Source: Vulcanimicrobiota bacterium (GTDB taxonomy: Bacteria > Vulcanimicrobiota > Vulcanimicrobiia > Vulcanimicrobiales > Vulcanimicrobiaceae). From it: 38,434 nucleotides of DNA. Position 1 is the first letter of the stretch; the number at the start of each line of letters is the position of its first letter. A model generated the notes under the pieces. That model had not been told where the DNA came from. It saw nothing but the letters and a program-made list of their open reading frames with translations, and did no database searches. Where the stretch lies: contig JAFAHZ010000234.1 of NCBI GenBank assembly GCA_019236975.1, positions 1 through 38,434 on the forward strand. The letters are read 5' to 3'. The position numbers were made by a program, and so were the translations under genes. Below, in pieces: positions 1,856 to 16,377 of the stretch.

Positions 1856-3025
1856 ATGTGTTCGAAGTTTTCGGCGCTGTCGCTAACGCTCGCCGCACTT
1901 TCGCTTTCGGCGTGCGCATCTTCCCCCGATTCGGCGATCTCCGCGCGGGCCGTACTGCCGGCTTTTGGGCCCACGGCCAGCGTGCACGGCGTGATCAAAG
2001 ACAAGGCGTTGAGGGCGCGGTCGTCAACGCAGTATCTCTACGTCGGAAGCGAGACGTCGGGAGAACGCGCGACGCTGATGCAATACGGCCTCGGCGGCGC
2101 ACGCATTCGCTCCGTGGCGGGCGGGATCGACGGCAAAGGAGAGGGGGCCTTTGCCTTCGACGAAGCCGGAAATCTGTACGACGTCGGCGTGAGCTGCGAC
2201 GGCAGCAAATACCAAGGCTGCGTGGACGTCTTCGCGCCAGGCCGCGTACGACCGTTGCGATCGATTCTGCTTCCCGTGGGTTACGATGCGGATTGCCTGG
2301 GGTTCGATAAGCAGGGCGAGCTCTACGTCGCCAACGATGGGCCCGGCGCGGGGTCTATCGGCGTTTTTTCGACCGCCGGAAAACTTCTACGGACGATTTC
2401 CGCCGGCATTCGTTCGCCGCTGACGTTCGTCTTCGACCGGCGCGGCAATCTGTACGTGGCCGACGGCGATCAATACTTCCACAATCGCTCCCCGAACGCC
2501 GTGACCGTCTACGGCCCCGGAGCGGCCAAGCCGGCGCGCAGCATCTCGATACCGTACGCGCGCGGCATACCGGTGTTCTTGGCCGTTTCCCCTCGCGACG
2601 ATCTCTACGTCGCCGAAAATCCGCTGCCGGACTCGCGCGCGAGCCGCATCGATGCGTTCGCGCCCGGTGCATCGCTACCGAAACTTTCCATCGCAGCGCC
2701 CGCGGCGCTTCTCAAAATCGCCGGCATGGCTTTCGACCGCGCCGGACGGCTCGTCGTTGCCTACGACGCTCCCGGCGATAACGGCGGCGAAGTCGTCACG
2801 TACGCGCCCGGTACCAGACGAATCCTCGAACAGCTGACATGCTGCGGCACGAGCGGCTCCGACGCACCGGCCGGGGTCGCCATCGATTCCGAGAACCGCG
2901 TCTATGTTGGATGGCTCAAAGCCGATGCCGTTCTCGTCTACCGAGCGCTGGAAACGTCGCCGTTCGAAACGATCCGCAAGGGCCTCGCTCCGCTCGTGTA
3001 TGCGGTGGCAATCGGTCCGCGCTAG
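1856..3025 (+). CDS. lipoprotein with NHL/SMP-30-like beta-propeller repeats
   Basis: A 389-residue protein. The start ATG follows a perfect AGGAGG (1846-1851) at 4 bases. The N-terminus is a lipoprotein signal with lipobox LSAC (Cys19 or so), so the mature protein should be membrane-anchored, probably in the periplasm or on the surface. The rest repeats blades of the form GxLYVAxx (LYVANDG, LYVADGD, LYVAENP, VYVGWLK), typical of NHL or gluconolactonase-like propellers. No catalytic residues can be assigned; a binding or scaffold role is possible. It sits between aceF and a second copy of the aceF 3' end, so it may have arrived by recombination. Confidence 0.85.
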   Translation: MCSKFSALSLTLAALSLSACASSPDSAISARAVLPAFGPTASVHGVIKDKALRARSSTQYLYVGSETSGERATLMQYGLGGARIRSVAGGIDGKGEGAFAFDEAGNLYDVGVSCDGSKYQGCVDVFAPGRVRPLRSILLPVGYDADCLGFDKQGELYVANDGPGAGSIGVFSTAGKLLRTISAGIRSPLTFVFDRRGNLYVADGDQYFHNRSPNAVTVYGPGAAKPARSISIPYARGIPVFLAVSPRDDLYVAENPLPDSRASRIDAFAPGASLPKLSIAAPAALLKIAGMAFDRAGRLVVAYDAPGDNGGEVVTYAPGTRRILEQLTCCGTSGSDAPAGVAIDSENRVYVGWLKADAVLVYRALETSPFETIRKGLAPLVYAVAIGPR

Positions 3026-5153: not shown

Positions 5154-6094
5154 GCGTTCCGCTCGACGAACTGCCGCGCGCGTGCGATCGCACGGTCGCG
5201 CAGCGCGGCAGGCTCGAGCACGCGTGCGACGTCGGCCCACGCAATGGCTTGGTAGACCGCCATCTCATCGCCAGGCAGCGTGACGCGCACGATCGCTTCG
5301 CCGTCGCGGCGCTCGATCAGTTCGACGGGCCAATAGGCCGAGAGACGTTCGATCGCCGAAGGCTCGACGGCAAACGTCACCACGAGATTTTCACTTCGCG
5401 ACGTCTCCGCAAAGCGCGCCGACGATTCGGCCCAATACCGCTCGAGATCGAAGTCGCTGGGTCGCGAAAAGTGCTCCTCGAGCTCGCTCGCGCCGGCGAT
5501 GCGCTCGACCCGAAAGCTGCGCAGCTCGTTCTCGGAACGCGCAACCAAATACCAAATTCCCGCTTTCGCCACCAGCCCCAACGGTTCGACGACGCGCGTC
5601 GAGGCGTTGCGATTGCGGTCTTCGTATCGCATCTCGACGCGCCGGTCGTCCCATACGGCGCGCCGCAGCAGCGTCAGCAATGCGCGCGGCGGCTCGGCTT
5701 GATTCCAGCGCCGGCCGTCGAGATGGATGCGAGAACGCGATTTTTCCGCCGCGCGCCGGTGCACGTCGGCGAGGCCGCCGTGCAGCTTCTCGAGCGCGCG
5801 ATCGAGCCCGCCGTCGAATCCTAAGTCGGCGAGCGGACTCGCTCCGGATGCAAAGAGCGCGCGAATCTCGTCTTCACTGAAGTGCGTGAGGGTCTGACGA
5901 TACCCGTCGGAAAGCAGAATACCGCCCGTCGAACCGCGCTCGCAATAGACCGGTACGCCGGCGGCGCTCAGGGCGTCGACGTCGCGGTAAATCGTCCGTT
6001 CGGAAACCTCCAACAGTTCCGCCAGCACGGGCGCGGTGCATTGACCGCGCGATTGCAGCAGCAGGAGCAGCGAGATGAGGCGATCGGCCTTCAC
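5150..6094 (-). CDS. YafY-like HTH/WYL-domain transcriptional regulator
   Basis: A 314-residue regulator. The N-terminal winged helix (about residues 1-60) contains VSERTIYRDVDALSAAGVPV, the recognition region of DeoR/YafY-type proteins; the middle and C-terminal part is the WYL ligand-sensing region with GIWYLVARSEN and FRVERI. I chose GTG 6094 because it begins the conserved [13 protein letters not shown] helix and overlaps the upstream TMEM175-like stop as GTGA; a longer open frame upstream lies inside that gene. It is the last gene of the run beginning at 11276. WYL proteins often sense ligands or nucleic acid damage signals; the target is unknown. Confidence 0.9.
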   Translation of the reverse strand: MKADRLISLLLLLQSRGQCTAPVLAELLEVSERTIYRDVDALSAAGVPVYCERGSTGGILLSDGYRQTLTHFSEDEIRALFASGASPLADLGFDGGLDRALEKLHGGLADVHRRAAEKSRSRIHLDGRRWNQAEPPRALLTLLRRAVWDDRRVEMRYEDRNRNASTRVVEPLGLVAKAGIWYLVARSENELRSFRVERIAGASELEEHFSRPSDFDLERYWAESSARFAETSRSENLVVTFAVEPSAIERLSAYWPVELIERRDGEAIVRVTLPGDEMAVYQAIAWADVARVLEPAALRDRAIARARQFVERNA

Positions 6095-6722
6095 GAAGCA
6101 CCGCGGGTGTGGAGTGCTACGCGAGCGTACAGGCGCCACAAGAGCGGCGCAATTGGAATCAACAAGAACGCGTACTCCACTTGAATGCGAACCGCCATCG
6201 TGACGAATACCGCGAGGGCCGTTCCCACGCCCACGGCAATCAGCCGCCCAGCCGCAAATACGCCCGAACTGCGAGCGGCGGCGTCGAGGCGATTCCAGCT
6301 GAGGCGCAGACACAACGCCCAATTGACACCCAGCACGACGTACATCACTCCAAACGTGATGATGTAGGAAAGCGCCGCGAACCGGTGGTCGGAGTCCTCA
6401 TGTTGAAAGTGCACGAACAACTGCAGCTGGTACACCAGCCAAACGATGAGTGCGAGCGTAATGAAGTTCAATACCATCGGCAGCGGACGAGGCACGAACG
6501 AATATTCGAACAACCGGTGATGCGTGTACCAGGCCGACGCCACGATTGCAAACGTCGACATGAACGCTAGCAGCGGCGTTGGATGCGTGTAAATCTCCGA
6601 AGCGTGAGCGGGGATGACGAAACTCAGGCTGAGCTGCGCCAAGCTGAACCCCATGACGATATCGGAGAACGCCTCGAGGCGGTGGGTGAGCCGCTCCTCG
6701 TGCGCGTCCTCGAAGCGCTGCG

Positions 6723-6729
<7 letters not shown>
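6091..6729 (-). CDS. TMEM175-like (DUF1211) membrane protein, start uncertain
   Basis: An integral membrane protein of about 200 residues with about five to six hydrophobic segments, resembling bacterial TMEM175/DUF1211 proteins, which can form potassium channels. The family signature RxxxFSD is present as RLEAFSD, but it is encoded upstream of the first ATG (6654). Between the aconitase stop and that ATG the frame is open and conserved in character, yet it holds no ATG, GTG or TTG; the coordinates given assume initiation near ATC 6729, overlapping the aconitase stop (ATT 6738 is another option). Starting at ATG 6654 would remove the signature. The gene is translationally embedded between acnA and the WYL regulator. 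Confidence 0.8.
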
Positions 6730-13528: not shown

Positions 13529-14439
13529 CGCTCGTCCGCGCACCCAACCCGTCCGCGATGACGCTGACCGGAACGAACTCCTACGTCGTGGATTGCGGTG
13601 CCGGACAAGCCCTCGTCATCGATCCCGGACCTCCCATCGACGCGCACGTGAACGCGTTGATCGAAACTGCGAAAGCGAAAGATCTGCACGTCGCCGCAAT
13701 CGCGCTGACGCACGGACATCCCGATCACGCGCCCGCCGCGCGCCCGCTCGCCAACGCGACCGGCGCACCCGTTTACGCGCACCCCGGCAGCTCCGTCAAG
13801 CACGACCGCGATCTGGCGCTCGAAGGCCATCTGCGCGTCGGCGATCTTGCGTTTGGCGTCATCGACGCTCCCGGCCACACCTTCGATCACGTCGTCTTTT
13901 ACTTGCCGCCCGAACGCGCGCTCTTCACCGGCGACGTCATCCTCGGTGAAGGAACCGTCGTCATCGCTCCGCCGGGCGGAGCCATGCGCCCCTACCAGCA
14001 CACACTGCAACGGCTCGAAGACGAGTTCGGCGAGGCGCGGACGATCTACGGCGGGCACGGGCCGGTCGTCGAGGACGCGCAAGCGAAGATCCGCGAATAC
14101 ATCGAGCATCGCCGCGCGCGCGAGCGCGAACTGCTCGCAGCGCTCGCCGAAGGCGAGCAGACGATACCCGAGCTCGTGCTGCGTATCTACGGCGAGAATC
14201 GACCGGTACTCTGGCCTGCGATGGCGCGGCAGATGCTCGCCTATCTCATCGCGCTGGAAGGCGAGCATCGCGTCGCGTCGCGACGCCTGGATCGCGCGAT
14301 GACCGACCGCGAACGCTGGATTCTCAACCCGCCGCTCGAGCAAATCGTCGGCCCGGAGCAAGCCGAGGTCATCGCCGCCGAACTCGGCTCGATGCTGTAT
14401 CTGGACGCGCTCATCGCTTACCGTGCGATCGATTTGTAG
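13522..14439 (+). CDS. metallo-beta-lactamase fold hydrolase (LACTB2-like)
   Basis: A 305-residue MBL-fold protein. Zn-binding motif ALTHGHPDHA (His64, His66, Asp68, His69), then DAPGHTFDHV, LFTGDVILGEG and IYGGHGPVVED complete the active site. A winged-helix segment (about residues 195-255) matches the C-terminal domain of LACTB2-type proteins, followed by about 40 extra residues of unknown role. Members include RNases, glyoxalase II-like and thioesterase-like enzymes; pairing with a CoA-type Nudix hydrolase suggests acyl-CoA or nucleotide chemistry, by inference only. Start GTG 13522 has a GGAGG 4 bases upstream. Its tail overlaps the convergent permease stop by 22 bases. Confidence 0.92.
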   Translation: MVTLVRAPNPSAMTLTGTNSYVVDCGAGQALVIDPGPPIDAHVNALIETAKAKDLHVAAIALTHGHPDHAPAARPLANATGAPVYAHPGSSVKHDRDLALEGHLRVGDLAFGVIDAPGHTFDHVVFYLPPERALFTGDVILGEGTVVIAPPGGAMRPYQHTLQRLEDEFGEARTIYGGHGPVVEDAQAKIREYIEHRRARERELLAALAEGEQTIPELVLRIYGENRPVLWPAMARQMLAYLIALEGEHRVASRRLDRAMTDRERWILNPPLEQIVGPEQAEVIAAELGSMLYLDALIAYRAIDL

Positions 14440-15932
14440 AGCGCTCCGCCGCCTGCGATGACGGCCATCACGAGCAGCGTGATCCAACCGTAGTTGAAAA
14501 CCGCGCGTCCGCTCGTCAGCGCGCTCGGCCAGACGATGTCGAGCAGCATGAGCAGCAAATAGATCGCACCGGCGACGGTCACCGGAACGCCCCAGCGGCC
14601 CAGCGTAAAGACGCCGCTCGGTTTCCAGCCGCGGCGGCGCGCGACGAGCGCGCCCAACACCGTCAGAAAAAACGCCAAGTAGATACCGGACGTCGCAAAC
14701 GATACGAGCGCATAGAGGGCGTTGACGTTGGCGGGATAGTCGAACCAGAGCACGTGCACGGGTTTGCTGGGATTGATCAGCACGAGCAGCAGAAAGAGAA
14801 ACGGAACGACCGTACCGACCAAGATCGCGTTAACGGGTGTGTGATGGCGAGGCGAAATGCTCGCGATGGCGGCGCTAGCCGGAAGCGTTCCGTCGCGCGC
14901 CAGCGCAAACGCAACCCGCGCTCCCGCGCCTTGAACGGCCGTTCCGCAGCTGAAGAACGCGACGACGACCATGACTAAGAACGTATCCTGCAGCCACGCC
15001 GGCAGCGTCCCCAACACCGTATTGATGCCGCCGTTGACGACACCGGCGATGCCGGCAGGCGGCGTCGCCAGCAGCAGACCGAGTACGAGCACGAACGAAG
15101 CGATTCCGCCATAAAGCAGCGCGTTGCGCATCGCTTTGGGCACCTGCCGCTGGGCGTCGATCGTCTCTTCCGAAATGTCGCCAGCCGACTCGAAGCCGTA
15201 AAAGATGTAGACGTTGGCGAGGATCGCAACCAGTCCGGCGGCCGCCCAGCTTCCGCCGAAGTCCAGTCCCATCGGATTGCTTTTCGCGATTTCGACGCCT
15301 TGGGTACTCAGCAGAAAGCCGAATCCTCGGTGGAAACCGGCGAATGCGAGCGCCGCAAACACGCCGAACGTCCCGATCGTTTCGACGTAGACGCCGTAGC
15401 GCGCGACGCGGCCCATGATCTTCGCGCCGACTGAGTTGAGGATCCCCGATAAGACGATCGTTGCGCCGGCGATGACGAAGATCGTCGCGTGGTCGTCGGG
15501 TTTGAGATGCGTACGGAAGAGCGTGTTCGAGAGCGCGCAGACGTACGTCACGACCCCGGAATCGACCGATGCAACCGTCGCCAGCAGCGCGAATCCGTAA
15601 ATCCAGCCGATGAACCAGCCGAAGGTCGGCCCGACGTTGTACTTCCCGTATTGGTAGAGCGCGCCGGAAAGCGGATACTCGCTGGCCAGCTCGCCGAAGA
15701 CGAGCGCGACGAGCGTCATGCACCCGACGACGACCGGAATCGTCCAGATATAGCGTGGACCGCCCGTTCCAAGTCCGAGCGTGTAGAGCGAGTAGATGCC
15801 GACCATCGGGCTGAGATAACTGAACGCGACGGCAAAGTTGTCGAAGAGCGACAGCACTCTCGACAGCTGCTGCTTGTAGCCCAGTGCGGCGAGGCGATCG
15901 TCCTCCGGCGATCCGTTCGCGATGATGCTAAT
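14418..15932 (-). CDS. APC-superfamily amino acid permease, start uncertain
   Basis: About 500 residues and about 12 membrane helices. The start region LAALGYKQQLSRVLSLFDNF followed by FAVAFSYLSPMVGIYSL is typical of amino acid/polyamine/organocation permeases, as are EYPLSGALYQYGKY, FYGFESAGDISEET and the GAGARVAFALARDG loop. Substrate cannot be read off. The conserved N-terminus reaches back to the stop of the upstream gene, but the frame has no ATG, GTG or TTG there; the coordinates assume ATT 15932, which shares one base with the upstream TAG. TTG 15989, 62 bases inside the upstream gene, is the nearest conventional alternative. Confidence 0.9.
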   Translation of the reverse strand: MSIIANGSPEDDRLAALGYKQQLSRVLSLFDNFAVAFSYLSPMVGIYSLYTLGLGTGGPRYIWTIPVVVGCMTLVALVFGELASEYPLSGALYQYGKYNVGPTFGWFIGWIYGFALLATVASVDSGVVTYVCALSNTLFRTHLKPDDHATIFVIAGATIVLSGILNSVGAKIMGRVARYGVYVETIGTFGVFAALAFAGFHRGFGFLLSTQGVEIAKSNPMGLDFGGSWAAAGLVAILANVYIFYGFESAGDISEETIDAQRQVPKAMRNALLYGGIASFVLVLGLLLATPPAGIAGVVNGGINTVLGTLPAWLQDTFLVMVVVAFFSCGTAVQGAGARVAFALARDGTLPASAAIASISPRHHTPVNAILVGTVVPFLFLLLVLINPSKPVHVLWFDYPANVNALYALVSFATSGIYLAFFLTVLGALVARRRGWKPSGVFTLGRWGVPVTVAGAIYLLLMLLDIVWPSALTSGRAVFNYGWITLLVMAVIAGGGALYKSIAR

Positions 15933-16377
15933 GTAAGGCCCAAGCCCAGGCGACGATTCGCCAACCCGGCGCCGACCGTTTGAGGACAAACGTCCAGACG
16001 TTGTCCTTCTGCACCATCGGCTTACCGTGCTCTTTATAAGCAAAGTCGGCGGGCACGACGACGTACGCCACGTTTCCGGTAACGTTGTCTTGCCAAGGCT
16101 TGCCCAGCGTCAGCGCCGGCGACGTATCGTCGCTGTGCTTCATATCCGCCGCAAACGCTTTCGCCCAATCGGCGCACGACGTCCACGTGTGCGGCGCAAA
16201 GTCGTCGACGATGGCCGTTTGTGGCGCGCACGCGGCAATCGAGCTCGCCATATTGCCGGTGTTAAGGCCGTCGACGAACTGACGGACCGCTGCGAGCGGA
16301 TCGGAGGCGGCCGGTGCCCGGCTTCCGGCAGCAATCGCTAAACCGACCGCGAACAGGCACGAAACCATGCGTTTCAT
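15928..16377 (-). CDS. secreted SnoaL/NTF2-like protein
   Basis: A 149-residue exported protein. Signal peptide about residues 1-24 (VSCLFAVGLAIAAGSRAPAA). The mature region looks like a SnoaL/DUF4440 cone fold: AAVRQFVDGLNTGN helix, SSIAACAPQTAIVDDFAPH, then strands ending VWTFVLKRSAPGWRIVAWAWA, which is the characteristic C-terminal strand. Cys49 and Cys67 (approximate) may pair. These folds bind small ligands or act as isomerases; no catalytic assignment. The permease follows without a gap, implying coupled translation. Confidence 0.75.
   Translation of the reverse strand: MKRMVSCLFAVGLAIAAGSRAPAASDPLAAVRQFVDGLNTGNMASSIAACAPQTAIVDDFAPHTWTSCADWAKAFAADMKHSDDTSPALTLGKPWQDNVTGNVAYVVVPADFAYKEHGKPMVQKDNVWTFVLKRSAPGWRIVAWAWALH

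Follow-up and report, generated by a model that had tools for sequence, protein, structure and literature searches.

The start region of a permease gene

Where does translation begin in a gene whose conserved N-terminus is preceded by no ATG, GTG or TTG? The question is raised by an APC amino-acid permease (PF13520, E 6.1e-44, together with orthologues) encoded in the window, by which we mean the whole 38,434-nt stretch of Vulcanimicrobiota DNA analysed here; the sequence comes from one draft assembly of 336 contigs. Read from ATT 15932, the gene covers 14418..15932 on the minus strand, the strand of all features given below. It follows a small gene (15928..16377) that is weakly SnoaL_3-like (PF13474, E 0.0064, below the cut-off), has homologues in 40 of 99 genomes, and ends in the TAG at 15928..15930. 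Across this junction the permease frame reads TAC ATT(15932) AGC ATC(15926) ATC(15923) GCG AAC GGA TCG CCG GAG GAC GAT, and then CGC(15896) CTC GCC GCA CTG GGC TAC, the conserved RLAALGY. The conserved N-terminal segment RLAALGYKQQLS (15861..15896) is present in 54 distinct loci.

Between the upstream TAG (15930-15928) and RLAALGY (15896 downwards) there is no ATG, GTG or TTG in the permease frame, which confirms the absence of a normal start reported in a preliminary description of this DNA. Coordinates also bear out its two further statements, that ATT 15932 overlaps the upstream TAG by one base and that TTG 15989 lies 62 bases inside the upstream gene. The latter codon (15987..15989, codon -31) is the nearest in-frame standard codon upstream, followed by TTG 16043 at codon -49, and GTG 15857 is the first one downstream; a start there would remove RLAALGYKQQLSR. 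In the sister genome G001, the permease has two standard codons ahead of the motif, GTG at -13 and TTG at -11.

Our best explanation is a permease start on a non-AUG codon that overlaps the upstream stop or comes shortly after it, most likely AUU 15932 (15930..15932), which shares one base with the TAG and would serve as the restart codon, or one of the two AUC codons just past it (15926 and 15923; 15921..15926). Ribosomes that have just finished the upstream gene would restart on the permease by termination-reinitiation, and the ordinary initiator tRNA would read the non-AUG codon. The start codon itself may have drifted from AUG to AUU, AUC or CUG at the overlapping stop and start. We consider a non-AUG start probable for the window permease; initiation at those particular codons, reinitiation and any effect on the level of expression are what we infer from the sequence. 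The region before ATT 15932 offers no good Shine-Dalgarno (SD) sequence (-3.5 kcal/mol).

Permease orthologues and the upstream gene

Orthologues were sought among 60 relatives, in the class (30 of 117 genomes at E 1e-150) and in the contigs of named genomes (55 loci). The N-terminal pattern, which the search itself required, was found in 88 permease loci, 54 of them distinct. By their kinship labels these belong to Vulcanimicrobiota (Eremiobacterota) and, besides, mostly to Acidimicrobiia or other Actinomycetota; no permease relative was confirmed in viral contigs. An N-terminal extension through the TTG 15989 region, which the preliminary description had singled out as the evidence that would speak against an unusual start, is absent from all 54 distinct loci.

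The same gene pair, located by the C-terminal pattern of the upstream gene, occurs in the window and in 12 relatives. Relative to the upstream gene, the window permease is in frame +2, whereas all 12 relatives have theirs in frame +1. The stop-to-motif distance is 2 modulo 3 throughout the relatives (11 to 38 nt), against 34 nt, or 1 modulo 3, in the window. Towards the end of the upstream gene, two Trp codons are read as NTG in the relatives' frame, so that in 10 of the 12 a standard start is available within 20 codons, inside the upstream gene. At the site of the second Trp codon this is GTG in six loci (L003, L010, L015, L031, L042, L096), ATG in L039 and TTG in L002; the window has TTG there too (15941..15943), out of frame. 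Over the upstream stop, five relatives have CTG, six CTA and one GTA. ATT or ATC at the junction codon, as in the window, occurs in none of these relatives, and we found no relative with a standard start at the codon matching ATT 15932.

The two relatives with no standard start within 20 codons are L009 and L080. In L009 no standard codon exists back to the in-frame stop, and the CTG (in CTGA) at codon -5 matches the ATG of L051, L067 and L081 and the TTG of L084, followed by Asn-Glu-Ser (NES-type N-termini). In L080 an in-frame stop follows the Trp codons, and after it there are CTG codons only. A standard start is also lacking from the permeases of both L034 and L040, two sister species sequenced in different projects; here the upstream neighbour lies on the other strand, so that coupling cannot explain the start. 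A weak comparison with other lineages can be made within the permease set: 6 of 31 Vulcanimicrobiota rows and 1 of 23 other rows lack a standard start within 20 codons. Among the six, L011 has GTG at the motif itself, leaving 5 of 31, and in the single outside row, L056, an ATG comes one codon later. The start-less rows are scattered over several places on a tree of 53 permeases, require six changes and cluster no more than shuffled labels do.

Some of these loci have further peculiarities. In L080, at about 2976-3000, the permease N-terminus is formed by a sequence that appears to resemble a widespread short repeat and to have inserted between the permease and the stop upstream of it. In L034 and L040 an almost perfect inverted repeat (GGCGACGA...TCGTCGCC in L040) runs up to a point just upstream of the permease motif, and a leaderless message is a possible form of expression at these loci.

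Alternative starts for the window permease

The main rival to a non-AUG start is a small indel that hid or removed the standard one: an assembly slip or a recent mutation would have put TTG 15943 out of frame, and the gene would then be an ordinary TTG gene carrying an error, or a young pseudogene. Its best argument is the change of frame against the relatives, all 12 of which keep the stop-to-motif length at 2 modulo 3, and the TTG in question stands at the second Trp codon, where relatives have GTG, ATG or TTG. However, the permease frame is unbroken for 492 residues, at 87% identity to its G001 counterpart; L009 and L080 lost their standard start by other routes; and the shared lack in L034 and L040 adds to a pattern that recurs in 5 of the 31 Vulcanimicrobiota rows. 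We therefore hold an indel to be a serious possibility, with perhaps one chance in a few of being correct.

The remaining accounts all appear improbable. Translation from TTG 15989 or TTG 16043, with a long overlap of the upstream gene, would make use of the only in-frame standard codons upstream, but the resulting extension is kept by no orthologue read, in-frame stops intervene in many of them, and the SD-like stretch before TTG 15989 (-5.4 kcal/mol) sits, as we read it, too far upstream; we disfavour this start as unlikely. Slightly less credible still is an internal start at GTG 15857, in which case the RLAALGYKQQLSR segment would not be made. Here a standard codon stands a short way ahead of the first membrane segment, but the RLAALGYKQQLSR segment is conserved in the distinct loci (the search having required it) and the codon is GTA in G001, L009 and L040, so this candidate too is disfavoured. 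Least credible is a programmed frameshift or stop readthrough joining the two genes. The downstream frame is indeed open across the upstream stop in many loci, yet the relative frame is not conserved (+2 here, +1 in the 12 relatives), the stop upstream of the glycosyltransferase gene described below also varies among relatives (at -2, at -3 in the same frame, at -4 or at +1), and an ordinary start can be present in permeases that lack the upstream gene (L012, L051). With the frame between the genes varying in this way, we consider a fused product unlikely. A non-AUG start at or just after the upstream stop remains our preferred reading of the window permease.

Other genes without a standard start

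The preliminary description had proposed counting such genes across the genome, and this was done on samples by comparing orthologues between 435,553 nt from the window's genome and 796,031 nt from the sister G001. From 196 gene-like pairs we dropped 41 whose frame was not coding-like, 5 that were small or weak and 2 at edges, leaving 148. Three of the 148 lack a standard start at the conserved N-terminus in the window's genome, namely the permease, an MGDG-synthase-like glycosyltransferase (PF06925, E 3.8e-31) and RecO, a rough figure because these were picked by eye among flagged rows. A TMEM175-like gene outside the 148 pairs is a fourth. For the glycosyltransferase, RecO and TMEM175 genes the standard start is missing from G001 as well as from the window's genome, so that an assembly error is an unlikely cause in these three. 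A replicate comparing G074 with G066 and with G001 gave 6 pairs each, none start-less in G074, a sample too small to weigh.

The TMEM175-like gene (6091..6729; PF06736 match 6681-6439) had been named in the preliminary description as a companion case, and it proved real. At its junction, ATC 6729 is followed by CTA 6726 over the upstream stop TAA 6725-6723, and its first standard codon, ATG 6654, lies inside the motif FSDIVM; in G001 likewise no standard start exists upstream of the matching point. A standard start lies no more than 22 codons from the motif in 14 of the 16 TMEM175 loci read, the exceptions being the window's genome and G001, so the loss is confined to the window's genus.

The glycosyltransferase provides the most extensive material. 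At the start column, which heads the motif.RVLFLSA..G.GH, 76 distinct loci have ATT in 27, ATC in 13, ATG in 5, GTT in 3, CTG in 2, GTG in 2, ATA in 1 and other codons in 23. ATG, GTG and TTG are absent back to the in-frame stop in 49 of the 76; a standard codon occurs only beyond 20 codons in a further 4, and within 20 codons in 23. The gene of G009 likewise has no standard start back to its in-frame stop. In four loci (L263, L264, L265 and L278) an in-frame stop stands directly before the candidate start codon, ATC, ATT, CTG and ATT respectively, so that no codon further upstream can serve. In 46 of the 76 loci the upstream gene stops at -2, and in 4 its stop stands directly before the candidate start.

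Upstream sequence and codon choice were then considered in 37 of the 40 ATT/ATC loci, leaving out three with ATG or GTG one codon earlier. The duplex with the anti-SD has a median of -8.6 kcal/mol, against -2.8 kcal/mol in random upstream windows. ATT and ATC stand at 26:11 at the start column, against 107:274 for internal Ile codons (binomial 1.2e-7, a value that ignores kinship). Taken together, the duplex energy and the codon bias fit a start codon better than an Ile codon. Another set of 37 loci, those with no nearby standard start and the upstream stop at -2, comprises 32 with two adjacent candidate codons, NTA or CTG over the stop and then ATT or ATC; in the other five, GTA is followed by GTT, GCC or GGC.

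RecO shows a similar lack. Among 85 distinct loci, ATG, GTG or TTG occurs within 14 codons before the motif in 52 and is missing there from 33, and 13 of the 85 have no standard codon at all back to the in-frame stop. Codon -6 in the 33 start-less loci is CTG in 15, ATT in 4, ATC in 2 and CGG, ACG, GCG or others in 12, and in the other RecO loci it is ATG in 9, GTG in 6 and TTG in 1. Among the 12, L386 and L398-L401 have CTG one or two codons later, and L404 and L405 have CTA ATC. The last five, from the window's genus (L287, at G000:C150:22171; L288, at G001:C2:101153; L289, L293 and L307), offer no good candidate: ATG, GTG, TTG, CTG, ATT and ATC are all absent from the six codons before the motif, and ACG at -5 is the only near-cognate codon there. 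The RecO_N alignment begins at profile position 4 on the first motif residue, so little is missing at the N-terminus.

On these sequence comparisons it is very likely that this bacterial family uses non-AUG starts at all. We further think that the permease is probably one case of a family habit, in which AUU, AUC or CUG would serve as start at tightly coupled junctions, with a strong SD in the glycosyltransferase and none here. The suggestion in the preliminary description that this lineage may use ATT/ATC starts at coupled junctions draws good support from genes that lie outside the window: the glycosyltransferase (49 of 76 loci without a standard codon back to the in-frame stop; ATT in 27 and ATC in 13 of the 76 at the start column; four stop-locked candidate starts) and RecO (33 of 85). 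For the permease that prompted it the case is weaker: no ATT overlies the stop in any of the 12 relatives, 10 have a standard start in the other relative frame and the SD reaches only -3.5 kcal/mol.

A more far-reaching possibility, which we advance only as a speculation that is rather unlikely to hold, is that, for some downstream genes of this family, what fixes the start is its position at the upstream stop and not the identity of the codon. A ribosome that has just terminated would set the initiator on any codon that overlaps the stop or comes next. If true, this would also cover the GUA/GUU, GUA/GCC and GUA/GGC codons of the five glycosyltransferase loci, the CUA/GUA over the TMEM175 stop and the ACG/GCG of RecO in the window's genus.

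Initiation machinery and known systems

A special initiator tRNA was considered and rejected, the initiator tRNA stem being canonical in 8 of 8 genomes. The canonical 16S tail carrying the anti-SD was matched in 3 of the 8, with no match in the other five, G000 included. The infC gene, matched in 101 genomes, also starts at a non-AUG codon in the 30 loci read: 27 have ATA and 3 have ATC. In Acidimicrobiia the matching codon is ATC in 7 of 7 loci. As a known system, infC (AUU/AUC/AUA) combines a non-AUG start with the ordinary initiator tRNA, as proposed here. Its weak start serves the autoregulation of IF3, and we know of no reason for such a start in the glycosyltransferase, RecO or the permease. 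Non-canonical initiation codons were reportedly described by Baudet et al. in 2010 for Deinococcus deserti, which would be a lineage with more non-standard starts than expected, as here.

Published work supplies further parallels. ATT is given as the infC start in E. coli and ATC in Streptomyces, and Streptomyces sigR is described as having a GTC start repressed by IF3 (PMC5472188). The sigR gene resembles the present genes in a non-standard start overlooked by annotation; it differs in being the upstream member of a coupled pair with a start proven by experiment, whereas here the gene is downstream and its start predicted. Termination-reinitiation is described for overlapping pairs of the ATGA and TGATG type, with a variable need for SD (PMC6728339); the geometry here is the same, with TAATT/TGATT or CTGA, but the start is not ATG, GTG or TTG. 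In E. coli, mutant initiator tRNAs are reported to reinitiate at non-AUG codons, and reinitiation falls when IF3 is in excess, though less if an SD is present (PMC2268962).

Among the matches listed in a literature search on start codons in Eremiobacterota and Vulcanimicrobium nothing concerned the subject, and the term "start codon" is absent from the main text of the Vulcanimicrobium alpinum isolate paper (PMC9758169). Non-AUG starts are already known; their recurrent, conserved use across one family, at the upstream stop, appears to be new. Gene finders limited to ATG, GTG and TTG would shorten such genes or assign them false starts. The 49 loci of one gene, the glycosyltransferase, offer replicated natural material for asking how far initiation may stray from AUG where the preceding gene hands over the ribosome, and whether weak starts are kept to limit expression.

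Other features of the permease loci

Three further observations concern the permease loci themselves. In L015 (G003:C165) the permease is split into two overlapping open pieces, which suggests a frameshift or an assembly error in G003. L041 (JAGWHY010000001.1) is labelled Acidobacteriota, yet its permease groups with Acidimicrobiales (Actinomycetota) on the tree; the bin may be mislabelled or the permease gene transferred. Lastly, within genus g36 (L034, L035, L044, L051, L080, L084, L092 and L102) the permease has many different upstream neighbours, as if it had moved often and gained a new start each time.
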